A stretch of DNA of 64,000 nt from Endocalyx cinctus (taxonomy: Eukaryota > Ascomycota > Sordariomycetes > Amphisphaeriales > Apiosporaceae). Position numbers and translations under genes: made by a program. The DNA lies in NCBI GenBank assembly GCA_001600455.1, contig BCKC01000008.1, forward strand, positions 1,585,345 through 1,649,344. The letters are read 5' to 3'. Positions within the stretch are counted from its first letter, which is position 1. Each line of letters opens with the position of its first letter. A model generated the notes under the pieces. The model saw only the letters and a program-made list of their open reading frames with translations. It was not told the DNA's origin and did not search any database. This document shows positions 2,790 through 58,632 of the stretch, piece after piece.

Positions 2790-3275
2790 TTGATAAAAGC
2801 GAATGGATTTATTTTTTTTTCCCTCCACCCTCGTATGGAACGCTCCCTAACCCTGGAATTCCGCAAAATTTTGTGAGGGTGGGATGAAGAGGGGAGACCG
2901 GACTTTTCTTTCGGTCACGTAACCCCGAGAAGCGGATACCACATGGAGGCCACGAGAAACCATGCCAGGATGTATACAGGAGCTGAGTGCACTATACATA
3001 AGCGTAGCTTGTGAGCCCACTCCGTCGATGCTACCGTAGCCTAGGGGCTTCGTTAGGGGGTAGACTGCAAATTAAGCATTAGAAAGGATTGAAGGCCTTG
3101 CAATTATTTGCTTGGCATAAAGTCACATCAAATACCGATCTTCTTTACTTTTGGCTTTGTTGTCCGCCGATCTACTTATAGTTTGCGGCACAGCTTTCTA
3201 AGCACAACATTATTCCATCAGGAGAGACGAGTTCTCCTCGAACTTTATGGGATACGGTTGATCGCAAACTGCCAC

Positions 3276-16718: not shown

Positions 16719-18366
16719 TCAAGCCAACGAACCCATGGGATCCCAAAGCGGCAGCACAATCGGCTCTTTCTTCAGCACATCTCTAACCTGCTTCGTCAAG
16801 AAGCGGGGGTCAATGACAGCCTGATAGACGAACTCGTCCATCCACTTATCGCTCATGACGAACCAGCCCTTCTCGCCCACCGCCTCTCCCCAGCTGTTCT
16901 GGACGCGCCAGCGGACGCATTTCCCGTCGTCGCCGTCGGCCACGTGTACCGCCGTGAGGACCATGGCGTGCGTCATGGCGGACTCGCCCGAGCGAAGCCT
17001 GGCCTTCTTGTCCATGTGCGACGACTGGTACAAGTCCACGTTGAATCCCAGCTTGTAATCGACCACGCCGACGTCCAGTATCCCCGCTTGCCTGTCGCTG
17101 AACTTGCCCACGTCCGACCCGAAGAAGACGGGCAGCCCGGCCCGCAGCATCGCCACGCACGCTGCCTTCAGCGTGTCCATAGGCACGTTGATGTACGCGA
17201 TACCCCTCCCACCGACGATGTTACCGAGGCGATCGACAGTCAAAAAAGTATAAGGGTCGTGTCGGGGGTCGTGCACGAGGGAGACCATCTGCGATATCGT
17301 GTCGGCCGTAACGGCGACCCGAAACGCGCCGGCGGCGAATATATCCGCCGCGAAAGCGAGGGGCGTCATACCGACCGTCCTGGCCTTCTTATGACGGTCC
17401 ACAAACTCCCACGTGAACGTCTCGGTGCAAGACGGCGGCGGGCCCAACGTCAACGTCAGGATGAGGTGGATCTCCCGCATCATCTTCTCCTTCGCCTTCT
17501 TGACGTCGCCTCCATCGTCCGCCAGCTGGCGCAGGATAAGCGCGTACTCCCTCAGCTTAGCGACGACGACGGCGTTGAGCGCCGAGCTGTTCATCGCGTT
17601 CCAGCTGTCCGGGTATAGCGCCTGCGGCACCAGGCCGTACTTCCTCACCAGGTTCACAACCATGTCCCATTGTCCGCCGTCGCTGACCGGGTCCGCGAGC
17701 AGCCGCTGGACGAGCCTGCTCTCGTCTAGGTCGAGATCGCTGGTCGCGAGTATGTTCTCGAGGAAATAATTCGCCTTCTCGAGCTTGTCCCAGAAGAACA
17801 GATATGCTTGCGAGAGCTCGAATTCTTCGAGCTCGTATTTCTTCATCAAGGAGACTCTGAAGACATTTGTGCTAGCGAATAGCCAACAGCGACCCGAGGA
17901 TCGTTGGTTTGTGATCGGTGACCCTTCAAACGGGATCTGGATGTTGAATACATGCTGGTCTGATATCTGGGTCGAGCGGGAGGTGAGAACGTCTCTGGGA
18001 TTCGCACTGCTGAGGGCTGAAAGGGCAAGCCTAAATATTTTTGACAGAAAAAAAAAGATACATTTGGTCAGTTCTAACTTTAATGACTCTTGGGGTATCT
18101 GATGTCTGAAGATAGTATATTCTATTTAGAATGACGGACCTGTTCTTTGGATCCTCCAGAAGACTCGATTGCCATCCCTTGGTCAGTGCGATCCCTAAGG
18201 CTTCAGGCTCTCTGCTATATGGAGATTTCGAAGGTTCTTTCTCGCCGTCGACAAGCACGTAGTCATCATATCGGCCTTCGCTCATTTGCAGTGATCTCAG
18301 CCGTTCGAGGACGGCTTTCTCATGCACCATCATCCCAGGAGTAGGTTTGGATTGCTGGGCACCCAT
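16719..18366 (-). CDS. lap3: bleomycin hydrolase / aminopeptidase C (peptidase C1B)
   Basis: Two exons, 18140-18366 and 16719-18030, give 512 residues, a normal length for the family. This is a papain-fold cysteine aminopeptidase of the cytosol that trims short peptides and hydrolyses homocysteine thiolactone and bleomycin. The catalytic triad is visible: Cys124 in QRSSGRCWLFA, His in SAMTHAMVLTAVH, and Asn in VQNSWGE. The C-terminus LPLWDPMGSLA matches the family tail that enters the active site. The N-terminus MGAQQSKP has Gly2 and Ser6 as in N-myristoylation signals. The intron is set by the family sequence DPKNRLALSALSSANPRD, which uses a weak GTCCGT donor. Reading through it instead gives an alternative frame ending in junk. 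Confidence 0.95.
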
Positions 18367-27529: not shown

Positions 27530-29374
27530 TTAAAATTCGAACCCTTTTTTCACCAAAGCCCTTATACCTTTGGATCCCCTCGAGGGTCGAGGCACGAAAC
27601 GGTCCATAGCCGCCTCTACGTCAGCTCGGCCGGTCTCGTAGTTACGAATCTCGAACCGTCGGAACAGACTCGCGATCCCTACGAAGAGCTCGGCGTAGGC
27701 GAGTTGCATGCCCAGACAGGAACGCGCGCCACGCGAGAACGCGACCATGTACTGATACAGCGGGCGACCGTCCGGACCCCGGGGATTCCCGAGCCATCGC
27801 TCCGGCCGGTATTCGAAACTTTCGGGGAAGACGTCCTCGTCGTGCGACACGTCGTAAATGCTCATGCTAACTATGGCACCCTTAGGGATCACGTAACCCC
27901 TGTAGGGGATATCGTGATCGTGGATGCGAGGGATTCGCTGCGTGATCCCGTACGTGAGTCGAAAAGCTTTTTGTTTGGTGCGACAGGGGGTGGAGGAGGG
28001 CAGGATGTTAGCGATTTACTTATCCGGTCAATTTCTTTTAAAAAATAGGAAGGACTACTGGAACGAACATTCTTCTATGCATGCGACGAGATACGGAAGC
28101 TTCTGTAGCACTTCCCACGAAGGAATCTTGTCCGGATCCGGGATCTCTTCTGCGAGCTCGCGGCGCAGTCGCTCGTACACGTCGGAATTTTCGGCGATGT
28201 GGTAGACCGAGAGAGCTAACGCGCGCGTCGTCGTCTCGATACCGGCACCTATGATACTCTCGGCCTCGTGCTGGAGACGGACTTCGGTGATTTCGGACGG
28301 CGGCAAATCGGACTGGATGACGGACATGAAGATGGTATCTGGCTGATCCTTCTTCTCAGACGTATCTGCGAGGGACTCCCGGACTTGTTTGAGCATTTCC
28401 TATCACATTGTTTAAGTATCCTCGTTATTTCTTTGAGTGCGTTCTAATTCATTATCACAAAAAAAAAAAAAGCCTACATTTTTGAATTCAATAACATTTC
28501 CCATGCCCGGGTTTATCCAGGTCACCAATGCTTCCGGCACCAAACTCATGCAGGTAACTATTAACGGGAACTGGGTAAACCAATGGACGGGCTCAACCAA
28601 ATCCCCGAAGCTCCGGACCAGGTCTGCTCTGAAGTTCGGTTTGCGGATGAAGTCGTAGCTCCTGTCGAAGCAATACTCAATGATGTTGTCCGCGGCCCAA
28701 CACCTCCACATCTCGTCGACGATGAGCACGCGGTCCTCTCGATCCTGGAATTCGTCTCTCAACCGCCGGCAGACCTCATCCATACGCTTTTGTATTAGAG
28801 GCACGCGACGTGATATCTTGCGCTTGGCGAAAAAGGGGTTCATCGCACTCCGACGGAAACGGTGCAGCGCGTGATCCGAGGTCGAGAACGCAGACTCCGG
28901 GTTGTGAAACCGACGTTCGTGATCTTTCCGCTTCGCGGCCGTTCTGACCTGAGAGTACAGGGTGTCAAAGAAGGATGCATCGGCGATGTGTAATTCGTAC
29001 GGATTAATGCGAATGATCGGACCTAAAAATAGATACAATTAAGGCTTCCCTCTTTTTCTCGGATCAGATGTTTTATGACCCCGCATTCAAAGCAAGTACC
29101 AAAGCTATTGCGCCTTACCGTATGCATCGTGCCATTCGCGATACTTGAACATAAATTGACCCCCTTCACCGGAAAATAACTCGTAGTAGGTCTCGGTCCA
29201 CCCGGTCAGAGCTGCTAGCTTAGGTCCGGGGAACGAGGCCAGCGGGCTTAGGTATAAGCGGTAGATGCCTAAGCCAAGAGTATAAAGGACTGCCGTACCG
29301 ACACTAATCAGAACAAGCGACTTGGAGTCGAACGCCCATTCTAACGGGTCACGAATCGCAGACCAGAGCGCCAT
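27530..29374 (-). CDS. cytochrome P450 monooxygenase
   Basis: Four exons on the minus strand, 29119-29374, 28478-29022, 28069-28399 and 27530-27966, give 522 residues, the normal size. It has an N-terminal membrane anchor (SLVLISVGTAVLYTLGLGIY), a proline-rich hinge (SFPGPKLAALTGW), the I-helix oxygen-binding motif AGIETTT (about 319-325), ExxR (E377-S-F-R380, formed across the third intron), FEYRPERW, and the heme-binding loop FSRGARSCLG with Cys461. It is probably an ER-bound oxygenase of secondary metabolism. It lies about 2.2 kb from the UstYa oxidase gene in the same orientation, so it may belong to the RiPP-like locus, but the empty spacer makes this uncertain. The third donor is a weak GTTCGT, chosen because it alone restores ExxR and frame. 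Confidence 0.92.
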
Positions 29375-31575: not shown

Positions 31576-32684
31576 TTACGGCCATTTGTTCCTATCTAGA
31601 GGTGTCGCGTGCTTGACATAGCCAATCCTATTGTCAAGCACCGTGTCTCTACCATCAGGCACGACCTCTCCGTATTTAGGGTGTACGAGAAGCCCCGGTG
31701 TGAACGGGTCGACCTTAATCTTCTCCATACCTTCCATTAGGAGCTCCCAGTTCACGCACTCATGTGCGATGGTTCGGTTGCCGCCGGGCAGGATGCTTTC
31801 TTCGAACCAGTATGCAGTAAGGGGAGTTTCGTCCGCCTTGCACATGACGGCTTCGACGAGCATTTGCAGGCAGTGCACTATAGCGTGGCGTATCAGGTAA
31901 GTTAAGAAAAAGTCCGTCGAGGCTTTTCGCTCGAAAGAAGAGAGGGGGGCTTACAGCTGTGCTCTAATTGCAATTCTTCTTCATCTTCCGTCATGTCTGG
32001 CCAATAAACCTCCGGAAAATAGGATTGGTGAAGGCGTTTCTTTTGAAAAACTACCAGTTAGATGCAAGATGACGAAAGAAAAAAAAAGATTGAAAGATGA
32101 TGAAAAAGGATAGCTACCAAACAGTGTAACTGGTGTATGAAAGCGTAGTTGGCGATGTAATTTCCGTTGGGCAACCGGATACCTTGTTTCGTCCGATCAA
32201 GGTTCTCCATGTACTCAGCTGGGACTTGGGCATAGAAATACTGCATGACATTGTGCCAGGCAGCGTCAACTTCCGGACCAGGCCGTCCCATGAGCTTATA
32301 ATCTTTAGAAGTCTCCGTGTTGTCGAAATAGGTTGGCTCGTACTTTATGTAAGGTCTAAGAGGAGCTGGAAGAGATTATTGTTAGTAATCTAGCTAGGCG
32401 AGATAGGCAGATCTAAACATACAGTCGATCACGTTTGCACCGTGGACCCTTTCCTTCTTCCACCATATCCAAGGCACCGTGACCAGAAGAGCTGAATATG
32501 CTAGGAATGCCAAAGTGCCCCCGATAGCTAGGATAACTTTTCTTCGATGGGCGGTTTTGTTTCTTAAACCAACTGAATGAGAGTTCTCATACAAGAGCTC
32601 ATCGGATTCTCTAGCTGATTGAGAAGATTGGTCATCGGAAATGGGCGAATACGCCGGTGAATTACTCTCCTTGAGGAAACCCAT
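31576..32684 (-). CDS. UstYa-family (DUF3328) oxidase, RiPP cyclisation enzyme candidate
   Basis: Four exons on the minus strand, 32423-32684, 32118-32365, 31955-32039 and 31576-31877, give 298 residues. One transmembrane segment (about 50-73, VILAIGGTLAFLAYSALLVT) follows a short cytosolic tail. Both HxxHC motifs that define the family are present: HQLHC at 165-169 and HSLHC at 197-201. The second is created only by splicing exon 3 to exon 4, which strongly supports the model. Between them lies QSYFPEVYWPDMTEDEEELQ, and after them HECVNWELL, both typical. Known role: UstYa proteins install oxidative ether or C-C crosslinks in ribosomal peptides such as ustiloxin and asperipin; some act in other pathways. 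The gene is divergent from the repeat-peptide precursor, 629 bp away. Confidence 0.93.
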
Positions 32685-33108
32685 GATATGAAAGTGCGTG
32701 GCTGTAGACTATACCTTGGGAAACCAATAAGTGGAAGAAAGAATTAAAAGTGAACAGTGAAACTGGTACCCTTAGATAGAGAAGGTAATGGGATTAAGTT
32801 AATTATCTAAGGTGATATTTCATCCGGTGCATAATCTTCCGACCGAAAAAGCTGACTGATAGGATCCCTCGGGATAATCCTTCGCAGGTTATTACCGGAG
32901 CCTGATCCAACGATAAGCTGATGTTGAAGAATCCTGATTTTTGACCTTCCCGAAATATCATGTTTCGATAATCTAAGTGGCTAGCTACTTATTGAAGGAT
33001 CAAACATGCCTGTGGGATTGGATATACTATACATCATTGCGGGGATATCGTATATTGTTAGCCAGGATTCATCCCACTCAGCCTCTGTGTTATCGGTTGT
33101 GATACCCG

Positions 33109-33124
33109 CCCCGATGCTCCGGGG
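33109..33124. promoter_or_regulatory. CCCCG-N6-CGGGG inverted repeat, possible Zn2Cys6 site
   Basis: A perfect 5-bp inverted repeat with spacer ATGCTC, about 190 bp upstream of the precursor ATG. Fungal Zn2Cys6 regulators bind paired CGG half-sites, and this arrangement (CCG-N6-CGG) is compatible with that. No regulator gene is visible nearby. Confidence 0.4.
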
Positions 33125-33162
33125 TAGAAGATAATAACTCAGAATTTCCGTCTGGTTTAAGG

Positions 33163-33170
33163 TATAAAAA
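33163..33170 (+). promoter_or_regulatory. TATA box of the repeat-peptide precursor gene
   Basis: TATAAAAA, 144 nt upstream of the precursor start codon and followed by a pyrimidine-rich leader. Confidence 0.55.
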
Positions 33171-33313
33171 GCCGATATCCACCTCACCCTCAAAGTAGCT
33201 TGATGCTAAAGATTATACTCCCCTCCACCCTTACAGCTCGCACTGCGTTTATTCCTCTGGTTTCTTAAATATCACTTTTACCTTTGTGCATCGCATTTTT
33301 GACCATCATCAAA

Positions 33314-33614
33314 ATGCAGTTCCGTCAACTCTCCTTAGTGGTCCCCTTCTTATTTGCTTTGGGCCAGACCCTCCCAGTGGCGGAGAACAGTAAGATGCCG
33401 TTCATTTGAATAATCGTGTGGTGATTAGTGAGAAAAGCTAAGCTGACCTCTCGAGTAACGCGTAGATGAAGTCGCCCCTCGAGACAAGGACAACGATGAG
33501 ATTTGGCTCTGGAAGAAGGGACAGGGCAATGACGTAGCTCCCCGCGACAAGGACAATGACGAAATTTGGCTCTGGAAGAAGGCCAAGGATAACGATGAGA
33601 TCTGGCTTTGGTAG
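33314..33614 (+). CDS. secreted multicopy peptide precursor (dikaritin/KEP-type RiPP candidate)
   Basis: Two exons, 33314-33389 and 33466-33614, give 74 residues. A 76-nt intron (GTAAGA...CGTAG, with GCTGAC as likely branch site) is needed, because without it the frame stops after 31 codons. Residues 1-20 are a signal peptide (MQFRQLSLVVPFLFALGQTL). A short pro-segment is followed by three copies of KDNDEIWLW: residues 33-41, 54-62 and 66-74. Copies one and two are preceded by VAPRD and followed by KK; the third ends exactly at the stop codon. Dibasic KK fits Kex2-type processing in the secretory pathway. Known logic: ustiloxin, phomopsin and asperipin precursors have a signal peptide, repeated cores and Kex2 sites, and are crosslinked by UstYa proteins; a UstYa gene is the divergent neighbour. 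Core boundaries and modification are inferred. Confidence 0.9.
33471..33611 (+). repeat. tandem core-peptide repeats of the precursor
   Basis: Two 48-nt units (33471-33518, 33534-33581) each encode VAPRDKDNDEIWLWKK, joined by a five-codon GQGND linker. A partial third unit (33585-33611) encodes KDNDEIWLW. Units one and two differ at seven codons, every change being synonymous; the third unit also differs from the first only at silent positions over its nine codons. Confidence 0.92.
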
Positions 33615-36869: not shown

Positions 36870-38434
36870 TTTGATTCTAATGACGAAGAGTGACAATAAA
36901 CAGAATCGAAACGGCGGAGAGAGAAATGAAAAAGAGAAAAAAAAAGAGAGTGACTACGTCGCCTTCCTAGAAAGAGTGATAGGAAAGGTAGATGCTAGAA
37001 TGAATGAATATCTACATGTTCAGATACACTACAATGAGCAATGCGAAGTTATATATAATTACACTTAATAGTACATACTTGTACCTGGTTTCTCTTCGAT
37101 AATCCTCATAATTAAACATACCCACGTGTAATCGCCAGTACGCGAATTTGACAACTTGGGTTATCCTGGTATGAGAAAACAGCTGGGATATACCATATAA
37201 CCTGCATGGCATTAGAATGGTATTGGGACCAATGTACTAACATAAGGCTAAGTAAAGAGTAATTGGGTGGTCTGAAGCAGCTTATAATATGTCATAGTGG
37301 AATGAGGTGGAATCAAGTTAGAATAGAGTTTAATTGCTACGGGGATTTCATGGGGCGATTGATAAGGGAGTGCAGTATAATATAAGAACCCCGTTATGCC
37401 CCGTGTGGTCCCGTACTACTCGTTTATGGTTGAGAGGGGCCGAAGAGCCAACGCTGAACCAATATGCATCATATCATTGAACCAATATGCAACATTTATT
37501 GGCTCTCTAGAGATGGAATAAGAAATAAGAAATAGGAAAAAAGAAATAAGAAAAAAGTTATAGTAGCGTCTCTCTTTTTTTCTTTTCTTTTCTTCTTGGG
37601 TCAAAAGCTGCGTAGCTCTGATTACTATAATCGTTTTCGAAATTCTGGGCCATCCACCCACATACTTACCGCGTACGCCTTAGTTTACTACCGTGTGGAC
37701 ACCATCCTGCGGGGTGCTGCCAAATGCGCCGCGGAGAAAATCTTGTGAAAAATAAAAAATATTAACGAAAATCCCATTTAGTAGAGAATCTGAAGTACTA
37801 ACGTACTCATCATAGTTTCGGTATTCTCGGTATCCTACCTAACAGCTTAGGTATTCGCATAATGAATCGGCCGATAGATTGTCTTCTTTTGTCCGATAGC
37901 TCGCCATCTGAAATCTGAAATAATGAAGTCTCTGCTTCGTTTTTAATGTCGATGTTTGGAATTATGAACAACGTCAGCTAGTTATTAACGAGCAACTACT
38001 AGTATGTATTGAACACTAGCTTCATCACATTTGACAGGAAAAAAATCAGTCAAATTTAATCAAAGATATTTTATCGATGCGATTAAATTATCAAGTGCTA
38101 CGAATGAAAGCGACGGATTTTGAAATGTTGTTGCCAGTCAAACCTCGGTACGATAAGACAAAGGGAATATTTGAATTGTTGAAGTTTAGAGAGAGGAATC
38201 AAACATTCTGAACATCTTATCAAATAAACCAACAGAGACGTATGGATTAATCTAGTTTCTGAACATGACTAATGTCATGTAACAGGCCAAGGCCATTATT
38301 ATAGTATATATATGTATAACTATCCATCAGAACCAGATACCAGATCCATCATATCTTCACTATTTCTGAAATAGTCGACGACATCTTGTTTTCTATTATC
38401 CTCTCACCTAGAAAAGTTTAAATCTAGGTACAGA
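36870..38434. other. intergenic, no gene seen
   Basis: Chitinase promoter region on the left and leader of the small Lys-rich protein on the right. A TATA-like stretch (TATATATATGTATAA) lies at about 38304-38319. Confidence 0.5.
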
Positions 38435-38647
38435 ATGGATAGCAACGACAATAAATCATCCAAGCCCCCTTCGAAGAACGACCAGTCAAGTGACAAGAAG
38501 GGCTCGGATCAAAAAGGTAGCGACAAGTCTAACAATCGCTCTCTCGACTGGCTTCACGATGCAGCAAACTACGAACCCCCACCGCAGAAGAAGGATCCTC
38601 CAAAGAAGTCAGACGACTGGATGGCTGACGCTGGAAAAATCGTGTAA
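38435..38647 (+). CDS. small hydrophilic Lys/Asp/Ser-rich protein, unknown function
   Basis: 70 residues, no signal peptide. The first half is disordered (SSDKKGSDQKGSDKS). The second half has two related Trp motifs, SLDWLHDAANYE and SDDWMADAGKIV, separated by a PPPQKKDPPKK linker. The stop overlaps a GTAAGT donor. If the downstream intron (to CTCTAG at about 38756) is spliced, the protein still ends in Val-stop. The upstream region has a TATA-like box and a CT-rich leader, which favours a real gene. I do not recognise the family; it may be a stress hydrophilin-like protein. Confidence 0.45.
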   Translation: MDSNDNKSSKPPSKNDQSSDKKGSDQKGSDKSNNRSLDWLHDAANYEPPPQKKDPPKKSDDWMADAGKIV

Positions 38648-40462
38648 GTAATTCTCTCCAAGATTTACGTGAAATTGTATCCATAATTAGCTAATTAACA
38701 ATACAAGTAAACCTTCATCCACCCTTATTCACACCCCAATGCATAACTCCTCTAGGTAATTGTATAATAAATCCACGAGTGATTAACTAACAATAATGAA
38801 ACGGAGCTATGAATATAATTATGATAATTAATTAGCTGCTACTTAACCCGGAGAGGTTAGGTCAAGCAGACAAAGAGCAACAACAAAGCCATTGTTTTAA
38901 CTAGTACTACACGTATGCATATGGTAATAGTTTCCTACTAAAAATAGCACTCAGCTAGTTTCATATATTATATACAGGCAGACAGGTATATAAAGTATTC
39001 AACATATCGCATTAGAATAGCACTGAAATATAATCAATCGATAGTGTACCTAATCCAACTAACCAACGTTTACCTATCATCGGCCTTCTCGTATAATCAA
39101 CCTTCAAGACAGTCAAGACATTTACCAACTTTTCTTGGTAATACCAAGAATCATACGAAACTCACCATAAGTGTAATTACAATTTTCTTTGATCTGCTTG
39201 CCAAGCTACTATAATAACTATTTATAGGTTCATTGTGAACTTTGGCTTTCAAGTATATTATGACGGTCCACTCGACTGAAGTGACGTCCTCGAGTGATGC
39301 TGAGGAGTCCTCGTTCTGAGAAGATAGCGACAATGCTAGCGGCGGCATCACGGTCGGCAAGGGTGAGTATTATCGCAAGACGCGCTATTTCACCGACGGC
39401 GTCAACGCGAAGGCAGCGCGAATCATTAACTAAGAATCTGTATTGGAGCCAGTTTGAAGAAATCGTCTTAGGCATCCCGAGGGCACAACGTTGGATTATC
39501 GGTACGTAAATGCCTGACACGTAGACGTAGTAAAAGAATAAGGATAGGCGGTGTCGGGTATGAGGGAATTCAATTTATCATGTTCTTTACTTCATTTAAT
39601 AGCAACTAATTATATTTCGTTACATGAAAACTGATACGTATTTAATATCTATTTTCCTTTCGCTCCGTATCATCTTATGAAACTTTTGGGAACCACATTG
39701 ATGAATAGTTACCGGCTTGATGCAGCGTCGTAGTTAACAGAAGTGAGGAGTGGGGGAACACTTCTTATGTTCAGTATCAAGCTTTGGCATCCCTTTCTTT
39801 GCCTTACATGCGTATCCTGTTCCACGTTACCAAACATTTGATGTGCTGGTACAATTATAATGATGTCAATATTTACTTGATGATAGGATACCTGTCAGTT
39901 AATCAGCAATCCGAACCACCGGTAGCATGACTTCATATTCGTGTTCACCAACATGGCTCAAGTAGAAAGGAGTCATCCAGACTGTATTCTTCGACTTCAT
40001 GACATTAAGGATTTGATTTCTATGATAGAAAAAGGTCCGATGATTACATTCTCTAGGAAAGGGCGAATCAAATAACGTTTCGTGAGTATTGTAGGTGTAA
40101 TCACGCAAATGGTAGATTACCTAGATAACAAATAATGAATAGTCACATCACGAGATCGCTGATCAGATGCTTCATTCACTTTTGAATTGGCGGATTGCTA
40201 TTTTATTGGATAATTCCATTGCAGTTACTAGGATGAAGAATGATTCTGATCGACTGGTACCTGCCTGAGAAGTTAATGACGCCTTGTCTAGGTTGAAAAA
40301 AAAAAGTATATATTTAGGACATTTATCTTCCTCAATTCTACAGATAATCTCTCCCCAAAATTTCAGTATTATCCATCATTCTGAAACCCATCTCACATAT
40401 CTAATTGTCTCTCATCATTATCAACCAAAGACACCGCCAACAATCTACTTTTCCTTGCCAAT
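38648..40462. other. intergenic with one decayed coding fragment
   Basis: AT-rich DNA. The only coding-like segment is the GC-richer island at 39260-39517, listed as a pseudogene fragment. Confidence 0.5.
39260..39517 (+). pseudogene. possible decayed coding fragment with C-to-T type stops
   Basis: A plus-strand frame from an ATG at 39260 encodes a Ser/Glu-rich start, then a stop (TGA), then a protein-like stretch including GGITVGKGEYYRKTRYFTDG. It is then broken by TAA and TGA and continues to a final TGA at 39515. Each internal stop could arise from CGA or CAA by a single C-to-T change, the pattern left by repeat-induced point mutation. The island is GC-richer than its surroundings. The family was not recognised. 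Confidence 0.3.
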
Positions 40463-40783
40463 ATGCAATTTGCTACTATCATCAAGTGTGCCTTTGCTGC
40501 CACCATGGCGGCTGCCGCTTCACCCGTCATCAGCGCTGATCGTGCGTTCGAAACCCCATGTGGTATCGGTGGATGTAAGTTTTGCCTCTGAATTCACTTC
40601 ACTCTTTTTGTATGATAGGTGGAAATGAAGGCTAGCAATACTGGCTATATAAAAGTCTGAAAGTGAAGTAATCAAACAAAAAGTATCTAACATACCAAAT
40701 TTGAAATAGTCCTTTGCTGCGAACGTGGTTGGTGCGAATCCCCCAACTGGTGCAACGAGTATAACCTCTGCATTCATAACTAA
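40463..40783 (+). CDS. small secreted Cys-rich protein, effector-like
   Basis: Two exons, 40463-40574 and 40710-40783, give 61 residues. The donor GTAAGT and acceptor AAATAG are canonical. The signal peptide is about residues 1-25 (MQFATIIKCAFAATMAAAAS). The mature part is about 36 residues with six Cys (33, 40, 41, 46, 52, 58) in the order C-CC-C-C-C, enough for three disulfides, and is rich in Trp and Asn (GWCESPNWCNEYNLC). Size, secretion signal and Cys density fit fungal effector or antimicrobial-type peptides. No named family was recognised. Confidence 0.8.
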
Positions 40784-41147
40784 GACCTTCTCGAGAAATG
40801 ATCCCATGAGTATAATTCCCGCCCCATATTGTCCCCTTCCCTCCTCTCTCGCCAATGGAGCAAAGCTCTTCACTTATCTATGTACTGTGTGCTAATACCG
40901 AGATAGGATTCCCATCAAGACCGCGCCATCTCAATGCAAAGAAGGGAGCCTTATCAGAGGCATAGAAAGATTTCTCATTTTACTTGATATGTTTTGGTGG
41001 GACATGCGAGGAGTACTTATTCACTTCTTGCTATGAACAATCGCAAGGGAACTTGAGTCGAGGTTAATAAGTGGCTGAGAAAGGAATGAAGAAGGAATTT
41101 GTTGGTCATTTCTAATAGTGAAGTTACAGCCAGCCACTCAACTAGAC

Positions 41148-41176
<29 letters not shown>
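41148..41176. repeat. poly(A) tract, about 29 nt
   Basis: An A run about 40 bp before the first ambiguous bases and the hairpin cluster. It could be the tail of a retroposed element. Confidence 0.85.
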
Positions 41177-41178
<2 letters not shown>

Positions 41179-41270
41179 ATATTCCTCGTAAAATATGGTA
41201 TCAGCATTTACTTTNANTATTTTTGTTGATTATTAGTAGCTAGCTGGAGTATAAGCCACACCAGCCACAT

Positions 41271-41365
41271 CACCAGCCACAGGCTGGTGTATGTGGCCAG
41301 TGCGGAGCTGGCCTGTNCGCCAGCTCACTTACANTCGAAATAATTCTGACTAGCAGAATTATTTC
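41271..41365. repeat. cluster of three hairpins
   Basis: Three perfect inverted repeats within 95 bp: CACCAGCC/GGCTGGTG (41271-41278, 41282-41289), GAGCTGGC/GCCAGCTC (41305-41312, 41319-41326), and GAAATAATTCTG/CAGAATTATTTC (41337-41348, 41354-41365). Ambiguous N bases occur at 41215, 41217, 41317 and 41334, suggesting a multicopy sequence that was hard to assemble. Confidence 0.75.
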
Positions 41366-42551
41366 ACAACATCAACAACAATAATAACTTCATTTTTCAG
41401 AACAGTAAAATCTTACGATTTTAACCCAACAATTTTGTTCATGAAACGACGTAGTTCACAATGTGTATCTTATTAAATGATGTGACTCGTGATATTAAAC
41501 GACCGCGGACAATCTCATTGACGCTGATAAAACTCCATACTAAAATTTCATAGAAAAGCGTCTATAACTTTATTAATAAGTAGAGTATTATGAAGAGCGG
41601 TAAGGGGCGAGGGATAAGCATGGCTACGCTGGAAGTCTAGAAATTGTTGGGATTACCGCCAAGAAAGGTATACATTCATAATAGTGGCCGGCTACGGGAA
41701 AAATCCTCCTCCCGACCCCACGTGCTAGCGCCCCGGTTGTTGACTGCGCTTATAATCTCGTCACGAGCAACGGGAAAAGCTTCGCTGCGAATTCGGGTAG
41801 TACTTCGTAGTCGTACCGAAACTCAATCGCTTATAACGGTCCAATCACCGGATGCCGGCAGTGGCAAAGTTCCGCCGGCATGCTGTGGCTTTATATATAT
41901 TAAAGCTTAAACATTCGGCATAACACGTTTGATAAAGTATAATTTATATGAGCTGAAACTTTTAATGAACTGCTCAACTTAGAGTATCGCGATGGATTTA
42001 ATCTAGTCAATTCGTTGAATAAAACCTAACTTTAATCACAACTCTCTTTTTCCGCTTTTACTATATTTAGTAATTCTATCAAATATTTTATCACGCGCTT
42101 ACATACAAAACATGTAGGTTATTCCTAAAGTTTGAAAAGAACAGCTCCTTTAAACGGGATCGCTGAAGCTAATAACCTTACCAAAAAGGTAATTATAAGA
42201 AAGACTACATAGCACTATCACGAACTAAACCTCATACTTATTCTTAATCGGTAATCAACACTAACCTAGCGAATGGATGTTGTGTTATTACTACAGTTGT
42301 GTTTCTGTGTCTTATGCCTGACGGTATTGACTGATATCGCCGTCTCCTTCAATCATTATGACACCTGTTGAATCACGGACTCTCGGGGATCCGTGAGGTT
42401 ACGCTCAAATTATCTCGAAGAATGAGACAAGAACTTAAGCATATATAAGAAAGTACAACTCCCAATAATTGTCGTCCTTTAATCAATATTATGTCTTCAG
42501 GCATCCTATAGTATCGAAATTCCACTCCATCCCAGCTCAATCACAGCCAAA

Positions 42552-43240
42552 ATGCAAGCCGTTGGTTTCCTTCTCCTTGCCATTGGCGCCGTCTTACCTG
42601 GCGCCGTTTCTATGAACCTGCCCGCTGGATACATAAACTCATCGCCTAGCAAGGAAAAGATTCCCCAGCCCGATATATACGAGGCTATCCATCTGGCCGA
42701 GGCCACCCTTGCCTATAGGCTAGACAACAGGCTGTGGGATGAGATGTATTTGAGCATGACGGAGGATGTTATGTAAGAATCAGAAGAAATGAACGAATCA
42801 GGCAATGCTGATAAAGAGACAGCTACGATAATAGTCAGTTCCTCGAGCAGGGGCGCCCTGGCGGTAGGTCCGTCGGCCTTGACGATGTGATTTCGGCCAC
42901 CCAGGCCGCCTTCGGGGATGCACTTCTCGCCCATAGCGTCACCTCGGCCATTATCGAGCTTTTGAGCCCGACCAAGGCCCATGTTACCACCTATCTTTTC
43001 TTCTCGCATTGGGACCCTACGGCCCTGGAAGATGATAGCAAGACGTACCGTATCTATGAGCAGGTAAGTCGATGGTTCTAGCTGATACGTTAGTTGGGTA
43101 AACTATTAGCTGACTAAGATTACTAGTGTGACGATATCTGGGTTCTCGAGGATGGTCTATGGAAGCTTCAGTACAGCATTGTGACAGATATGGGCCCGAA
43201 CTGGGAACTGCCCATTGTTAAGTACCCGACGTCCACGTAG
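42552..43240 (+). CDS. secreted SnoaL-like (NTF2-fold) protein
   Basis: Three exons, 42552-42772, 42835-43063 and 43127-43240, give 187 residues. The signal peptide is about residues 1-20 (MQAVGFLLLAIGAVLPGAVS). The rest reads as an NTF2/SnoaL fold: helix IYEAIHLAEATLAYRLDN, then LWDEMYLSMTEDVM, GLDDVISATQAAFGDALLAH, and strands AHVTTYLFFSHW, IWVLEDGLWKLQYSIVTD. Family knowledge: these cone-shaped proteins include polyketide cyclases, dehydratases and many proteins without enzyme activity. A secreted version next to small secreted proteins is noteworthy, and its substrate is unknown. Confidence 0.8.
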
Positions 43241-43589
43241 CCAGAAAGGAAAGAGAAAAGTAAGATCCAGGGTTTGACATTATTGTAGTGTGTCAAATAG
43301 AATCATTCAAAAGGGACATTAGATAGACTTAGAACTCTCTATACGGCTTCTTTAGAGAAAAAGAAAGACGAAAATGTCATAAAGTAAAGTCAATGTTAAG
43401 AGAGCGAATGTAAGATTGAATCTATAATGACAAGCTACTCAGTCACATAGACTTTTTAAACGAACGACTTAAGTGAAAGACCACATCTCCTGTAACCCGG
43501 TTATCCAACTCGCCATTTCCTGCAAATCCTCACAAAGCACTAGTCCAGCGTTGCTTGTTTCTGGTGTGTATAGTTGGCGCCTAAGAGAT
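43241..43589. other. convergent 3' spacer, no gene seen
   Basis: A short region between the SnoaL-like gene and the oppositely oriented Cys-rich gene. Confidence 0.6.
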
Positions 43590-43927
43590 TTAACAATCTC
43601 CATTGTTGCAGCTGCACACGCCATTAATGCAGGTTCCGTATCCACCGCGGCACTACATAGAAGACAACGAGTGATTAGTCACTTGAATGTAAATACCGAG
43701 CTAAACCAAAACGGCAGCACACTGTTTTAGTGGCTTGAGAAAGGACTTACAGCGCAGCAAGTGGTGGGGTCGTTGGAGGCGCAGGGGAAAGATCGTCCAA
43801 GGATCAAGTCTCCGGAAACGTCGCGGGTATTGAGACGTTGAACCATACCGGCCGGCGAGGCTTCGGGGGCGGCTATGGCCATGGCGAGGTTCGCGAGGAG
43901 GGCCAAGGTGGTAGCGGTGAACTTCAT
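43590..43927 (-). CDS. small secreted protein with eight cysteines, defensin-like spacing in part
   Basis: Two exons on the minus strand, 43751-43927 and 43590-43652, give 79 residues. The donor GTAAGT and acceptor ATGTAG are canonical. The signal peptide is about residues 1-20 (MKFTATTLALLANLAMAIAA), then a pro-like stretch ending near RLNTRDVSGDL, then a compact domain with Cys 49, 57, 58, 60, 67, 72, 74 and 79. The second exon, CRGGYGTCINGVCSC plus NNGDC, has the Gly-x-Cys and Cys-x-Cys features seen in disulfide-rich defensin-like peptides, but the first half lacks the usual CxxxC helix motif. Best described as a Cys-rich secreted peptide of unknown activity. Without the intron the frame ends after six extra residues and loses half the cysteines. 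Confidence 0.82.
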
Positions 43928-46146
43928 GATGACGGATGGTTTTGGATTTATGATAATTGTAAAAAATCTTTTACGTGATTGGTGTGAATGTGATGAAACT
44001 GAAGATGAAATTGTTTAAACTTCGACGATTAATGAGACCGGACACAGACCCCTTTTATACTACTCGAGGAACCCCTATTTATTGAAAAACACAGCCGACT
44101 TCTTGACGGAAGTGAGAGAACGATCTACACCGGAAGGATTATTACTCGTCTTTTGTCGGACAAGCAGGATTGTCGGTGTGGGCCTCGTTGTTCAATGACG
44201 TACGTCTGCCGTGGAGTCATACCGTATAATCCTTCTTGTGTTGCGGTGACCGGAGCCGAACGCCTGCTTATAAAGCCGGTAAATATGCCGAAATTATGAA
44301 GAGCCATTACCTCCGAGATGGCTACCAAACGGCTTAAACCTCGTATAAAATTTGCTGTTGAAAAGGGGGGGGTGGGGTGGTTTAACTTCACCGCCTGCCA
44401 AAAAGTCACCCCTAGAAAACTATAACTATTTCGGAGATAGTAAATTGGCGAGGGCCTTATTCTACTTTGTTAGACTTTATACGACTGTGCTAGTTGTGTA
44501 ACAGGCATGAGGTATGAGTAAGATGATCGGCTTTGTGGATTGCTCAAAGGATTGCTAGCGACCTGCTGAAAGTGAAGATCTAGTGTTACTGGTGGGCCGT
44601 TCCATAAAGTGGAATTAATATAAGCGATATTTACGTCACCAAAAACCATAATTAATTCTTTAAAAATAAATTATCCCCCCCTTTTTTTGCCAGTTCCTAC
44701 CCGTCAACTTCAACCTATTATTATTAGCGTCCTGGCCACAGCCCCCCCGAAGCGTCACTGACCTATTTAAATGCGTGATGAACACTGAGAATTGAGTTAT
44801 TCGTCTCGAATATAGGTTTGGTGGATGATATCAGCTCTCAGGCGCCAAAAGAAGTTATCCCAAATGAGATGATTCCGCTTGATAATACGTAAATGAACGT
44901 GCACTCGCGGAATAAACTTCTAGCCAAGCTTCTATGTGACTTTGCCGTTCAAAGAAGATGTGAAGCTATTTAAAAGACATAAGTTAGAGTAGTCAAAAAG
45001 TATGAATTAATATTCTAATTTAGACCACATAAGTAGGAGATACGCGGGATTTTAATCATAGGGCTTTATTGAAGTGTTAAATGAGCTCGCAAGTTTCATA
45101 CACTTTGTGTGCGGACGAACTATATTTCTCACCCTCACGCGTATATGCTGGTATCGTGACCGATCCCGTCATCGAAGTGGGACGGCGCACACCCTTTCCC
45201 TACAGTGACACCGAAATACTTCGCCGATGAGATGTGTGAAAATCTCGCGATCATGAACCGCGTGTATAACGAGGACAATCTATAGTCAAAAGTTTGGTTG
45301 AGAGAAGCGCTACTTCAGTCGATTTTTCCAAATTCGCCGTTAGAAAATAAGCTTTCAAAGACTACTTACCTAGGTACTAAGAACTCAAGTACTTTACGTA
45401 AGTAATAAGCAAACGGAGTAATAAGCACACTGGGGTAAGTTTCTTTGGACCTTGGAAGCCCAAGTCTGCGCCATCAAGATTGAGTGGTGTACCTACAGCG
45501 CGGAGTTCACTATGATGAGGGGGCAGGTGGATAAATTTAGATGCTTAGCAAGTGTGAGAAAATTTATGGGGAAAAGAGGCGTACCTGTATCGACACTTGG
45601 AGGCAAAAGTGTTTTGGTTGGTGTGACCTGTATCGGTAGAGCATTTGATAGCCAATTCTTGACAGGTTATAAATGAGAATCTTTTGGAGAGATTCCCTAG
45701 GCTTTCAGTGCAGGTTCTTGTCGAATCAACTGGATTAGGGACTAGGTTAGCTCAGGAATGAATAAGATGTAACTATGGCATGAAATAAAAACAGTACTTC
45801 AAAGTACTTCACGAGTCAGTACTCGGTAGTAACAAGATACTCAGTAATTTATCCCTTTGAGTGCCAATTCAGAATCGCCAAGACTACTGAGAAGGATTTG
45901 GTCTACAACACTGTGTGCGCAAAAATGGGCATTGTTGTAGTGCAACTCTACAACATCCATCACACTACCTAACATCTGTCAGATTGTTAGAGCTTATGGA
46001 GGGTATTTGAGAGCTTGGTAATCATATTATGTAAATATCTTATTGGATTAGGGCTTAAGGAACTATCTATTTCTATGAATCGAACGGGAGCCCAACACCT
46101 TATTTATAATGCTTCCTGAGCTGGTACTACGTAATTCAGGGGTTGG
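43928..46146. other. intergenic, no gene seen
   Basis: Separates the secreted-protein zone from the polyketide cluster. Short frames only, with no motifs. It includes a G/C homopolymer patch near 44366. Confidence 0.5.
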
Positions 46147-47611
46147 TCAATAACTCAAACCGGGTTCATGAGCTTGATTCCACCCCGTAATGTAACGTCT
46201 CCGAAACCAGGTCCCATTCAGTCCCACTTCTCCGTTACAGTAACTATATCAGAAAAAAATCTTGAAAATCACTTACCTCAAATATTTCTCTCTCCAATGT
46301 GAGATGGCTCCCGGCTCTGGCATGCAAGTCTCGTTGACAATGATTCTCGCCCCTGGTTTCAATGCAGGGACCAAAGCTTTGAGGATCAATACGCAATACT
46401 TATCGGACCAGTTGTGGAAGACCCAACGAAAGAAGTAGATGTCTGCTTGTACCGGCTGTGGCTTGAAGAAATCGTATTCTATGTATTTGAGTCTTCCTTC
46501 TAACTGCTCCGGGATCTGGTTATTTGCTCCCTCAAACATGATCGCCATGTCTTGGACAATGATAGAGATGTTGGGGAATTGTGTAGCAATGTCTTTACTA
46601 ATGTGGCCCGAGCCACCTCCCACGTCAACAATTTGTACTTGACCAAGAGCTTCCCAGTCATAGTCGCGAATGACGTGTGACGAGCTGTATTCATGCATCA
46701 GCATGTAAGCCTTCATGCTGTTGGCAAATCGGTAACCGCGTACTGGGTCCTGCTGGAGAACCTCGTAGATACTTCTTCCCGAGCTATCTGCTAGAGCGAA
46801 ACCCTTTATCGATCAGTGTTAGGGACCAGTGCCACCAATCAGTAGAAGCGGATATGACGTATTAATCCAACATACCGTTTGGGCTGGCTCCTCAGATCCT
46901 GGCCATTTCTGCAGAGCGTCCACCATCTACAGAATAATAGTTAGCTCGTTTCTATTAGGCGATTATTTTATACTGTTTTATCTTCTAACCTTTACAGAAG
47001 CAGGCCACAGCTCATGGGTACCCAAAGCCACCCAGTCATTAGCCACAGGGTTCGGCAGTGCTTTAGAAGCTTGAGTATGTGCCAGGCTTCCAGGTTCGGG
47101 TTCACAAAACACTCTCATCGTCACCGCATGTCTCGGAACTCGGCGCAGAGACTGCTCGTCTAGGCTAGTTTGCTTAGCAACAGCTTCGAACGTGGTATGA
47201 CCTCCCAATGGCACTAGCTCGGCAATTTTGAGACGTGAAATGGCTGCCAAGGACACGCAATTATTGAACTATATGCTCGGTAGTTAGCGGAATATTCTCA
47301 TGAAAGAGAGCGAATGAAAGGGCTCTAAGCTACTTTGCCTCCTGTGAAGACAAGGGCTCACTTACAGATCCGTGTCTGTATATGATGTCTAGAGGACCTT
47401 GAAGCAGGTCTTGGAGCTCGGCGGCACAGTCGATTATTAGGTCTCTAACATCGACAGTTTCGCGAGGCATCGTAGTCGGGGCCTCCTCATCGAACGATGC
47501 AGACGGCGCTCCATAAGCTGACAGAATTGCTTCTAGCTTCGTAACCGACTTGGAAATGGACAACGCAAGTTGGGAAATGCGAGAAGTAGATTGATCGGTC
47601 ATGATGGGCAC
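46147..47611 (-). CDS. SAM-dependent O-methyltransferase (COMT-like), C-terminus abnormal
   Basis: Five exons modelled on the minus strand, 47366-47611, 47268-46990, 46926-46876, 46803-46277 and 46243-46147, give 399 residues. If the last intron is retained the protein stops at 46272. Features: an N-terminal dimerisation and winged-helix region (CVSLAAISRLKIAELVPLGG), then IYEVLQQDP, the SAM-binding VDVGGGSGHISKD, FRWVFHNWSD with the presumed catalytic His, and PGARIIVNET. After WREKYL the usual last 50-60 residues of the family (an ERT..EW..LF..A.F-like segment) are missing. The modelled fifth exon encodes unrelated sequence. It probably methylates a hydroxyl of the cluster product if active, but may be a 3'-truncated allele. 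Confidence 0.8.
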
Positions 47612-48201
47612 GAATTTTTACTCACTTTGTTTATTGTGGGGAACACTCAGATCGATGTGGTAGAATGAATAAGGACGAATGGCTTGGGTCAGAGGGTGGA
47701 GGACTCAAGTGGTGCTTAGTATATTGGAATATATAAGAGCTAGTCAAACGAACTTACGCAAGCTTGGGGCGATGCGCTGTATGGTGTACCAAAAAAGCTG
47801 GTGCACGCCAAGGCAGGCACTGTTGTTTAATTGCGCCCCGCACATGTGCAAGAGAGGAGAGCACTATTATTGAAGATGTAAGGCTCTTCTTATTATGCGA
47901 TCCATGATGTACCGAGTTACCTACCGCTGAAGTACTGTGCATGTAGTGGTGTAAGTATAAACTTAGGGGGTGGGATTATTAATAAGGGGTGATGGTAGTA
48001 CGTACTGGGCTGATGCCTGGGAAAGATAACATGGACTATATATTTACGAGCTATATTCATATAAAAGGAATAATGTAGATTTCAGAAAGTTTTATACGAT
48101 ATCCTAGCGTTTCTCATAAGCCGCTCGTAAAATTGTCAGACCTGCGTCTATTTACCTTCCGCTCATACTCAAAGCTTAATTATCTGTTTCTAATCCCCAT
48201 C
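47612..48201. promoter_or_regulatory. divergent intergenic region, O-methyltransferase to adenylation gene
   Basis: A 590-bp spacer between oppositely oriented cluster genes, presumably holding both promoters. No specific site could be assigned. Confidence 0.5.
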
Positions 48202-49377
48202 ATGGTAGCCTGGTCCTGTCTTCAGGATGTTATTAGCGGCGGAGCCGGGCCAGGGACCATCATTTGCTACGACTTAGGAAATATCTCAAGTCCACGATGC
48301 ATCTCTTACAAGGACTTGCTGGCCCAAGCGCAGCGAAACAGTGTGACGATCCGCAATATTCCTGAGTTTCAAACACGCCAACCAGTAGCGTTATACCTTG
48401 ATACGCATATGAGTAACATCATCTGGTTTTGGTCCGTACTCTTTGCCAATGGTCTTCCTGTAATACTGTCACCCAGCAACACCGCCCACGACCAACTCCC
48501 TGGCCTTGCGATTCTCCTAGAACATCCTCTTTGCATCACCACTGATGATATGGCGAGAACACTTCGATCAGACCATGGGATGAACATTATCACCGTTGAA
48601 AGAATACAGAGACAGGATGTGCCTTGCACCAGGCCATTACAGTATCTTCAGTTCCAAGGAGGTTCAGCCACAGCTTTCCTGATGTTAACATCAGGCAGCA
48701 CTGGAGTCCCCAAGGCCGTGACTCTGTCTCATCGTCAAGTTCTCGCCGCAGTGGCAGGAAAGGCTGCCGTGCGTGCACTTCCCCCAGGAAATCGTCCATT
48801 GTTCAACTGGATAGGGCTCGATCACGTGGCAAGCCTAGTTGAGATCCATATACAAGCTCTGTGGTTGGGCATTGACCAAGTTCATGCTCACGCAGCTGAT
48901 ATTGTTTCTGGGCCAAGAAATTTTCTGGAGCTCTTACATCGTCACAAAGTCTCTAGAACCTTCGCTCCAAATTTCTTTCTAGCTAAGCTTGTCACGGCCA
49001 TGCAGGACAGAGAAGACACGGATGAAAAAGATCTCGAGAACTTAGATCTCTCGAATCTTAATATTCTCGCATCAGGGGGTGAAGATAACAACGTGGACAC
49101 TTGCCTTGCGGTATCCTCCCTATTACATCAATACGGGGCTCCTCGAAACGCTTTAGTCGCCGGATTTGGCATGACAGAAACTTGTGCAGGGGCAATCTTC
49201 AACCTAGAATGTCCTGACTACGATGCTAAAAAAGGCAGATCTGTGGCCTCGCTTGGTAAATGTATGAATGGGATTGAAATGCGCATAGCGGCCTCTGGAG
49301 AAGACTCGAAACCCGCTTTAATATATGATTACCAAGCTCCCAATTTACCTCCACAAGCTCTATTAACGCGCTCATAA
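48202..49377 (+). CDS. truncated adenylation (AMP-binding) protein
   Basis: A single frame of 391 residues from the first ATG (MVAWSCLQDVISGG). It shows the N-terminal subdomain of an ANL adenylating enzyme: CISYKDLLAQAQRNS, VALYLDTHMSNIIWFW, P-loop LMLTSGSTGVPKAV, FNWIGLDHVASLVEIH, and FGMTETCAGAIFNLE. Core motifs after the GMTE block (the TGD region, the hinge and the C-terminal lysine) are absent, and it ends in unrelated sequence after about residue 370. Only 94 bp separate the stop from the polyketide synthase 3' end, so the missing 150 or more residues cannot lie downstream. The style (GLDHVASLVEIH) matches fungal NRPS-like or multidomain adenylation proteins. Probably a non-functional remnant, although the frame is still open. 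Confidence 0.8.
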   Translation: MVAWSCLQDVISGGAGPGTIICYDLGNISSPRCISYKDLLAQAQRNSVTIRNIPEFQTRQPVALYLDTHMSNIIWFWSVLFANGLPVILSPSNTAHDQLPGLAILLEHPLCITTDDMARTLRSDHGMNIITVERIQRQDVPCTRPLQYLQFQGGSATAFLMLTSGSTGVPKAVTLSHRQVLAAVAGKAAVRALPPGNRPLFNWIGLDHVASLVEIHIQALWLGIDQVHAHAADIVSGPRNFLELLHRHKVSRTFAPNFFLAKLVTAMQDREDTDEKDLENLDLSNLNILASGGEDNNVDTCLAVSSLLHQYGAPRNALVAGFGMTETCAGAIFNLECPDYDAKKGRSVASLGKCMNGIEMRIAASGEDSKPALIYDYQAPNLPPQALLTRS

Positions 49378-49471
49378 TACTATTTTGTGAAAAACAGAGC
49401 CAAGAACAGTTATTAAGTATCAGTTATCTGAAGACAACCTTATGCCAGTTTTCAAATAAGTACCCATTCGC

Positions 49472-57566: not shown

Positions 57567-58632
57567 TTTGAGGTATTGATGATGGGTAGGTAGACGAGAT
57601 ATTTACGTTTGTATATTAAAAGTATAATAAAGACAAGCCAGTCATGTATGAATTAAAGTGACTTCAAACGCAAGAAAAGAAGAAGAAAAAAGAGTTATTG
57701 GGGAGATCTTGCGACCAAATGTATCTGATGCTTGATTCGTAGTTGAACAGTCTAAATGATTGACTACCACATTACGGGCAACTGTCAGTTTTCAACACGT
57801 ATCACAAATGGAATTGATATAGGATAAAAATCCCTAATACCACATCATCTGCTAAGCTCATCACACCAAGGTGACAGAATCGATTTGGCTTGTTAAGCTA
57901 CTCCTAACTGATTCTTGTTGCGGTGATGATGTTGTCAAGCCTCAAAAAATTAGCGTCAGTACACTGCATCATAACTAACACTACAGAATTGATCTACGCC
58001 ATGAGGTGCTAGTATAAAAAGAAAAGAAAAAGAAAAGAGATCGACGCATTCTACTGCATGAAGGCATCTCAATTTTCGTAGTAATAGTGGCTCTAGATAT
58101 TTCCGAGATGACTTGGCCAGTCAGTGCTATAATCAGCAGCCGTCTGTCACTCTGTACCAATATCCCAGGAGAAGCCTGCTTAATTCCTGCTTAAGCTACC
58201 TAGTCACGTTAGTGAACTTAGAGTATTGACTATATTCCTACTATTGAATCAAAGCCGCACTTTGTCTTGTATAATGACTTAGACAAATCGATGTCTAATT
58301 ACACCGTAATATTTACCGCACGAAAGCCGAACAAACAAAAGATTACATATTATTTGTTATTAATTCATCAAGACTTATGAGCTAAGGTGATTCTGTAATT
58401 TGACTAACGTAAGGGTATAATATATATTTATAGTGAAAATGTCGATGTTATAAGAAAATTATCGTTACATAAAGAGAATGCCGCATGAGTGTGCATTCTT
58501 ATTTATAACCCGGCTGTAATTACTTTAAGTAGTTATATACATACTACGGGTTATGAAACTTTTTTTTCCCTCTTCAATCTATAAAGCACTATCAAATATT
58601 TTCCTCTATCTACGAAGAAATAATTCCGAACA
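57567..58632. promoter_or_regulatory. divergent intergenic region, polyketide synthase to acyltransferase
   Basis: 1.07 kb between two divergent cluster genes. A TATA-rich stretch (TATAATATATATTTATAG) lies at about 58417-58434, some 200 bp before the acyltransferase start. No gene is seen. Confidence 0.5.

Follow-up and report, generated by a model that had tools for sequence, protein, structure and literature searches.

A candidate dikaritin-like peptide locus with tryptophan as the sole aromatic core residue in Endocalyx cinctus

Does a small repeat gene that lies head to head with an oxidase gene of the UstYa (DUF3328) family encode the substrate of that oxidase, and what might the two produce together? 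We addressed this question for a locus of the ascomycete Endocalyx cinctus. The stretch analyzed, hereafter the window, comprises 64,000 nucleotides of contig BCKC01000008.1 (C8:1585345-1649344) from a genome of 44.76 Mb in 15 contigs. It holds a gene for a 74-residue precursor with three copies of the core KDNDEIWLW, divergent from a UstYa gene. Our results give us good confidence that the locus is the core of a pathway for a dikaritin-like ribosomally synthesized and post-translationally modified peptide (RiPP), in which the precursor would be cut at Lys-Lys (KK) sites and oxidized by a dicopper UstYa enzyme. Very probably, this is a peptide natural-product pathway that has not been described.

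The precursor gene and its UstYa neighbor

The two genes have the following features, with positions counted in the window. Conservation of the enzyme motifs is given for two alignments, A1 (the window UstYa protein and 19 relatives) and the larger A2 (27 sequences).

33314..33389, plus strand: precursor exon 1, with the hydrophobic N-terminus MQFRQLSLVVPFLFALGQTLPVAEN, a probable signal peptide; similar N-termini in the homologous precursors P0038 and P0039
33390..33465, plus strand: precursor intron of 76 nt, donor GTAAGA, acceptor GCGTAG
33466..33614, plus strand: precursor exon 2, which encodes the repeats and ends with the stop codon
33486..33512, plus strand: core copy 1, KDNDEIWLW
33513..33518, plus strand: KK, a probable Kex2-type cleavage site (KK follows 10/10 internal copies in three precursors)
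33549..33575, plus strand: core copy 2, KDNDEIWLW
33576..33581, plus strand: KK, a probable Kex2-type cleavage site, on the same basis of 10/10 internal copies
33585..33611, plus strand: core copy 3, KDNDEIWLW, followed at once by the stop codon
31576..32684, minus strand: UstYa gene (DUF3328, PF11807) for 298 residues, exons 32684-32423, 32365-32118, 32039-31955 and 31877-31576
32121..32135, minus strand: first HxxHC motif, HQLHC (HxxHC in 20/20 sequences of A1 and 27/27 of A2)
31870..31961, minus strand: second HxxHC motif, HSLHC (HxxHC in 20/20 sequences of A1 and 26/27 of A2)

An initial annotation of this DNA had proposed a two-exon, 74-residue precursor with an intron at 33390-33465, three KDNDEIWLW copies with KK spacers and, 629 bp away, a UstYa protein carrying both HxxHC motifs. 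All of this held when we rebuilt the genes. The coordinates and counts of the precursor were reproduced to the base, the copies were found where they had been placed, with KK after copies 1 and 2, and 629 bp separate the two start codons, which lie on opposite strands. The UstYa protein matches PF11807 (E=6.7e-39), and its gene model contains both HQLHC and HSLHC.

The precursor gene runs from an ATG at 33314 to a stop codon ending at 33614 on the plus strand. Spliced, it encodes MQFRQLSLVVPFLFALGQTLPVAEN-NEVAPRDKDNDEIWLWKKGQGNDVAPRDKDNDEIWLWKKAKDNDEIWLW, 74 residues; unspliced, its frame terminates after 31. The splice model is supported by a second precursor of this genome, at locus L018 on contig C6, which has the same plan. 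The N-termini of the window precursor and its two homologs are alike and hydrophobic (mean Kyte-Doolittle value of 2.3 over the best 12 residues), and on hydrophobicity alone we judge the N-terminus to be a probable signal peptide. The precursor also gave a weak Pfam hit to SAVED (E=3.1e-4, below its cut-off), which we discounted as noise from the hydrophobic stretch. The UstYa gene, from ATG 32684 to stop 31576, has four exons separated by introns of 57, 78 and 77 nt, and splicing across intron 3 (31954-31878) is required to form its HSLHC motif. By eye, the UstYa protein has a hydrophobic stretch close to its N-terminus.

The cores of the window precursor are separated by dibasic sites, of which KK is the only kind, and Trp is the sole aromatic residue of KDNDEIWLW, which contains no Tyr, Phe or His. 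Among the three 27-nt copies there are six differing sites, and all six are synonymous. Since 10/81 of single changes are synonymous, the probability of this pattern, with changes treated as independent, is (10/81)^6, or about 4e-6, and about 5e-5 with a fourfold transition bias. That the copies differ only synonymously argues that the repeats are not a product of chance. A degenerate pattern covering D[D/E]IWLW matched the 44.76-Mb host genome four times, at the three window copies and at one site on contig C4, and the reversed pattern, used as a control, had 0 matches. The lone DDIWLW-coding site on C4 showed no repeats by eye in its 3-kb locus and was taken as chance. In viral and prokaryote collections the degenerate pattern gave 0 matches, as expected for a fungal gene.

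Conservation of the core and the enzyme in other fungi

The initial annotation had read the locus as a UstYa-linked repeat-precursor locus, and homologous precursors in two Xylariaceae now back that reading. With the 74-residue precursor alone as query, a protein search returned nothing at E ≤ 10 among 44 candidates. This search missed P0039, whose length was within range, so absence there means little. For a second search the query was extended with duplicates of its repeats, and residues 1-110 were scored; of 1464 candidates, only two proteins reached E ≤ 10. P0038, from Xylariaceae sp. FL1272, has 179 residues and six copies of KDNDDIWLW (E=1.1e-25); its annotated start precedes the Met that corresponds to the first residue of the other two. 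P0039, from Xylariaceae sp. FL0255, has 97 residues and four copies of KDNDDIWLW (E=5.1e-15). When the host genome was searched with P0038, the window locus was the sole return (E=2.2e-6).

Across the 13 copies of the three precursors, eight of the nine core positions are invariant and the ninth varies only between Asp and Glu (10 D, 3 E), with Glu in every window copy and Asp in all copies of P0038 and P0039. The seven residues before the core Lys vary among copies, and the spacers drift. KK follows 10/10 internal copies, and 3/3 last copies end at the stop codon. Because the last copy reaches the stop and the others are followed by KK, the mature unit should end in ...IWLW, with KK cleavage and trimming elsewhere. 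As for the invariant Lys, it could be retained in the product, or it could serve in cleavage or in recognition.

Both Xylariaceae also have a close relative of the window UstYa protein, P0008 in FL1272 (70% identical) and P0009 in FL0255 (68%). P0038 and P0008 are both listed with a longest contig of 593,282 bases and have locus tags 474023 and 474021; P0039 and P0009 are both listed with a longest contig of 265,514, and their tags, 378939 and 401752, lie far apart and are uninformative. From the equal listed sizes we read precursor and UstYa relative as lying on the same contig in both species, and as near neighbors in FL1272.

More broadly, 37 proteins related to the window UstYa were found at E ≤ 0.001 among 441 candidates, and 27 of them have an organism name. 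Setting aside a Cercospora protein (24% identity) leaves 26 named relatives. Full-length relatives are up to 73% identical to the window protein; in A1, identity is 51 to 79% for 18 of 19 relatives, several of them fragments, and 25% for the Cercospora sequence. The HxxHC pair is complete in all sequences of A1 and in 26/27 of A2, the exception being P0026. The named relatives belong to Xylariales, Sordariales, Coniochaeta, Apiospora and Pleosporales (for example Kalmusia and Karstenula); Eutypa, Xylaria, Nemania and Thermothielavioides are also among the genera that bear the enzyme. In the UstYa tree, Apiospora joins the Pleosporales pair of Kalmusia and Karstenula (90/87) and Eutypa comes next (88/82), groupings that are not starred; they hint at gene transfer between fungal classes. 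The AlphaFold model of P0008 is poor (mean pLDDT 53) and has a long N-terminal helix at 42-76 and both HxxHC motifs on helices. Compared with solved structures, the UstYa profile gave one row at chance level (E=0.8).

A proposed pathway and its alternatives

From these genes we infer how the window precursor may be processed and modified and what it may yield. The precursor would enter the secretory pathway, where a Kex2-type protease would cut after KK and a carboxypeptidase would trim both lysines, leaving an end at ...IWLW; the last copy already ends at IWLW and would require no trimming. The N-terminus would be made by some protease just before or just after the invariant Lys, giving (K)DNDEIWLW. 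The [M+H]+ values calculated for candidate products are 1090.484 for DNDEIWLW (1088.468 after loss of 2 H, 1086.453 after loss of 4 H), 1218.579 for KDNDEIWLW (1216.563 after loss of 2 H) and 746.387 for EIWLW (744.372 after loss of 2 H). By homology to CctR, UstYa probably spans the membrane once and carries a dicopper site on the luminal side, built from its two HxxHC motifs. It would then oxidize the Ile-Trp-Leu-Trp end of each copy, most likely by forming a side-chain link that involves Trp. Such oxidation of the IWLW end is consistent with a luminal oxidase encoded beside a precursor that would be secreted.

Publications are cited here by PubMed Central number. CctR, a DUF3328 protein, was recently shown to be an oxygen-using enzyme that is associated with membranes, depends on copper and contains two coppers in each monomer. 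Activity requires its HxxHC(x)nHxxHC motif, which is regarded as the metal ligand, and the domain has been proposed to lie on the luminal side of secretory organelles (PMC12435403). The Tyr-to-Phe ether link of asperipin-2a is stated to be the work of a dicopper DUF3328 enzyme, and UstYs are listed with other enzyme families that join aromatic side chains (PMC12186524).

Which bond would be formed is a more tentative matter. With no Tyr, Phe or His in the core, only Trp is available for an aromatic cross-link, and a core nearly frozen in three species, together with an enzyme found in several ascomycete orders, suggests one specific target. We put forward, at somewhat less than even confidence, that the dicopper UstYa enzyme cross-links Trp in DND[D/E]IWLW, either Trp to Trp or Trp to the neighboring Ile or Leu, with Trp as the only aromatic residue involved.

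Several points weigh against the proposed pathway. It is predicted from gene sequences. KK is a less usual Kex2 site than the classical KR. The genome has 39 tyrosinase matches, all of them outside the window, and the UstYa tree leaves the window protein unplaced. The shared contigs in FL1272 and FL0255 are deduced from equal listed sizes. The core has neither the Tyr nor the Phe of the UstYa-type links described in our sources. In the survey of Umemura, Trp occurs in 20.5% of repeats with DUF3328 neighbors and in 24.5% of those without, and the corresponding values for Tyr are 65.6% and 38.2% (PMC7329392). Finally, protein searches, which were word-based and covered annotated genes only, found no precursor for 24 of the 26 named UstYa relatives. 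The initial annotation had named, as an outcome that would speak against it, related genomes that keep the UstYa gene with no repeat precursor beside it. As far as the protein searches reach, these 24 relatives would fall under that outcome; a precursor accompanies the other two. Gene calling may explain the missing precursors. The earlier expectation that automated gene callers may overlook such a gene fits the database, and a two-exon frame of 74 codons, with precursors for so few of the relatives, suggests that precursors of this kind are easily missed.

The competing explanation that survives best shares most of the proposed pathway. Precursor and UstYa would cooperate, and the core would be hydroxylated, halogenated or desaturated to an open-chain modified peptide with no cross-link. 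Members of DUF3328 have been implicated in hydroxylation and halogenation besides macrocyclization (PMC12435403), and a title cited in PMC12186524 has UstYa-family proteins installing dehydroamino acids in phomopsins. Since these activities are also attributed to the family, a Trp-Ile or Trp-Trp link is offered here as a hypothesis. A core without Tyr and Phe would likewise suit an open chain. Yet the UstYa-linked RiPP examples given in PMC9233826 and PMC12186524 have cross-linked side chains, and the Trp-x-Trp end would be a plausible coupling site. We consider the open-chain outcome rather unlikely.

Alternatively, the gene could encode a linear, secreted signal peptide of the pheromone type, with its Trp-x-Trp as in alpha-factor and UstYa as an unrelated neighbor. 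WXW motifs are typical of alpha-mating factor precursors (PMC7329392), and repeats with dibasic sites are common to both kinds of gene. However, two more species carry both the precursor and UstYa, and nearly all annotated mating-factor and pheromone genes among the Kex2-processed repeat proteins (KEPs) are without DUF3328 neighbors, with three exceptions (PMC7329392). We found a mating pheromone improbable and dropped it. It is more improbable still that the gene encodes a repeat protein with no peptide product, such as a cell-surface protein or a decaying gene. There are only three copies, known from their sequence, which would allow for this; yet the copies differ only synonymously, and the core is kept in two other species while the spacers drift.

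The remaining explanation concerns the genes around the pair:

23.9-27.1 kb: NFACT-domain gene
27530..29374, minus strand: cytochrome P450 gene (PF00067, E=2.7e-61 on hand-joined exons)
about 35.2-36.9 kb: GH18 gene (chitinase)
46273-60075: reducing polyketide synthase cluster, with an O-methyltransferase at 46.3-46.8, an AMP-binding enzyme at 48.1-49.4, KR-ACP at 49.5-50.7, AT-DH-MT-ER at 50.7-55.9, KS at 56.1-57.0 and an acyltransferase at 58.6-60.1 kb

The P450 gene, absent from the initial annotation, shares the strand of UstYa and lies 2.2 kb past the UstYa stop codon; its last-exon junction lacks a clear donor site, and the gene model is provisional. It is possibly a tailoring enzyme of the cluster that could add a further step. 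The window holds one DUF3328 gene only (two exon-level matches, C8:1617082-1617890). A C1-type peptidase gene at 16.7-18.1 kb may be housekeeping, and the O-methyltransferase sits next to the polyketide synthase. That UstYa and the P450 serve another pathway, such as this polyketide cluster, with the precursor there by chance, is the least credible explanation and was dropped: members of the UstYa family are likewise found in clusters for polyketides and nonribosomal peptides (PMC12048977), and a polyketide synthase is present in the window, but the chitinase gene and about 9 kb (36950-46300, with no Pfam match at E ≤ 0.01 in a six-frame reading) lie between the two, and a UstYa relative co-occurs with the precursor in two other species.

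Elsewhere in the host genome, 48 exon-level matches to PF11807 were grouped by hand into about 39 UstYa-family genes. We scanned the window and loci L001-L042, together 43 sequences of which some overlap, with 271,532 bases in all, for exact repeats of at least three copies. They covered the flanks of 37 of these 39 genes, mostly to only about 1.5 kb on each side. The scan yielded the window precursor, a five-copy IDVADAFKR precursor on C6 and the antisense shadow of a gene on C9:

L018:405-730 = C6:29994-30319: IDVADAF repeat precursor, between UstYa matches at C6:27792 and C6:31090
L038 about 2700-3100 = C9 about 16900-17300, minus strand: precursor-like gene, about 2 kb from a UstYa match at C9:19046

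Thus, in the flanks scanned, exact-repeat precursors stand beside only a few UstYa genes. The C6 gene is a classical UstYa-linked precursor with the exon layout of the window precursor: a signal peptide, a GT..AG intron directly after it and five copies of IDVADAF, with KR after the first four and the stop directly after the fifth. The C9 gene has a signal-peptide-like exon, MRYTTLAFLFAAVSSASPLLSG, and two copies of DGDTPLNVDVDYKI with a dibasic site before each; the scan's own row at L038 was the antisense shadow of this gene. In L040 and at 7.9-10.9 kb of the window, frames rich in repeats were judged by eye to be parts of long open reading frames and set aside. A P_proprotein (kexin-type) domain was found at C5:89016. 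Two tyrosinase matches near contig ends, C10:1888658-1889392 and C15:4060-4794, have identical scores, open-frame lengths and stops, and are likely a recent duplication or an assembly overlap.

Relation to known peptide systems

According to the initial annotation, no dikaritin with an EIWLW core is known to have been described, and the literature we searched agrees: among the papers listed, judged by title and start of abstract, there was no fungal peptide with an EIWLW, DEIWLW, DNDEIW or IWLW-type core, the matches to IWLW including a review on lasso peptides of bacteria, and titles and abstract starts on UstYa with Xylaria and with known RiPPs had no such core either. The main text of Le Marquer 2019 has neither WLW nor EIW (PMC6339444). 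A survey of Hypoxylaceae found ustiloxin-like RiPP clusters by similarity to known precursors (PMC8403587).

The locus probably belongs to the known kind of UstYa-associated RiPP, with an unusual core and possibly a new linkage. The dikaritins (ustiloxin, phomopsin and asperipin-2a), together with which victorin is discussed (PMC9233826), share with it a multi-copy precursor, secreted there and probably secreted here, dibasic sites and a UstYa/DUF3328 gene next door. In contrast to them, its core KDND[D/E]IWLW has Trp as the sole aromatic residue, its dibasic sites are KK instead of KR, and the window has one UstYa gene and no tyrosinase match. Under a broad definition of dikaritins, a DUF3328 enzyme with a multi-core secreted precursor, the two-HxxHC enzyme and the cores separated by dibasic sites are both present. 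Under the narrow definition, a set of five genes from Ding et al. that is quoted in PMC12048977, a tyrosinase and multiple DUF3328 genes would belong to the cluster; the window has no tyrosinase match and a single DUF3328 gene, and asperipin-2a is cited in the same source as having only a single ustY homolog. For the methyltransferase, transporter or peptidase of that set, the candidates among the open reading frames scanned are the O-methyltransferase beside the polyketide synthase and the C1-type peptidase gene. A Tyr-ether dikaritin of the ustiloxin or phomopsin type finds no counterpart here, with Tyr in 0/13 core copies.

Another close known group is that of KEPs with DUF3328 neighbors (Umemura 2020, PMC7329392), defined by at least three tandem repeats of at least eight residues between KR, KK, RK or RR sites, so that KK is accepted. 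By inspection, the window precursor has three nine-residue copies, the first without a preceding dibasic site and the third bounded by the stop, and an adjacent DUF3328 gene. In that survey, 22% of 7878 KEP genes have DUF3328 neighbors, and one Trp-containing type with such neighbors is described (P-3, Trp with Pro). A Trp core with DUF3328 is thus not unheard of as a prediction, and the window core type may already stand in the supplementary list as a bare sequence.

Other side-chain-linked peptides offer more distant parallels. Epichloecyclins (GigA) also derive from a repeat precursor and are nonapeptides cyclized through their side chains (PMC9233826); theirs is a Tyr-Ile link, whereas the window core has no Tyr. 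Amatoxins and phallotoxins are fungal RiPPs in which a Trp side chain is linked, to Cys (PMC9233826), but they come from a different precursor type processed by a prolyl oligopeptidase, and the window core has no Cys.

The chemistry of the UstYa (DUF3328) copper enzymes is still being worked out, and Tyr or Phe takes part in the UstYa-type RiPP cross-links described in our sources. A core with two Trp and no other aromatic residue, nearly identical to the letter in three species that share a conserved enzyme, would provide a clean test of UstYa action on Trp. In plants, BURP-domain burpitide cyclases perform copper-dependent linking of aromatic side chains in ribosomal peptides (PMC12186524), and their planar four-histidine dicopper site has been likened to that of CctR (PMC12435403). 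As plant proteins of another family, they serve as an analogy only. If true, Trp cross-linking at this locus would represent a UstYa-made counterpart of the Trp-linked peptides of plants and bacteria.

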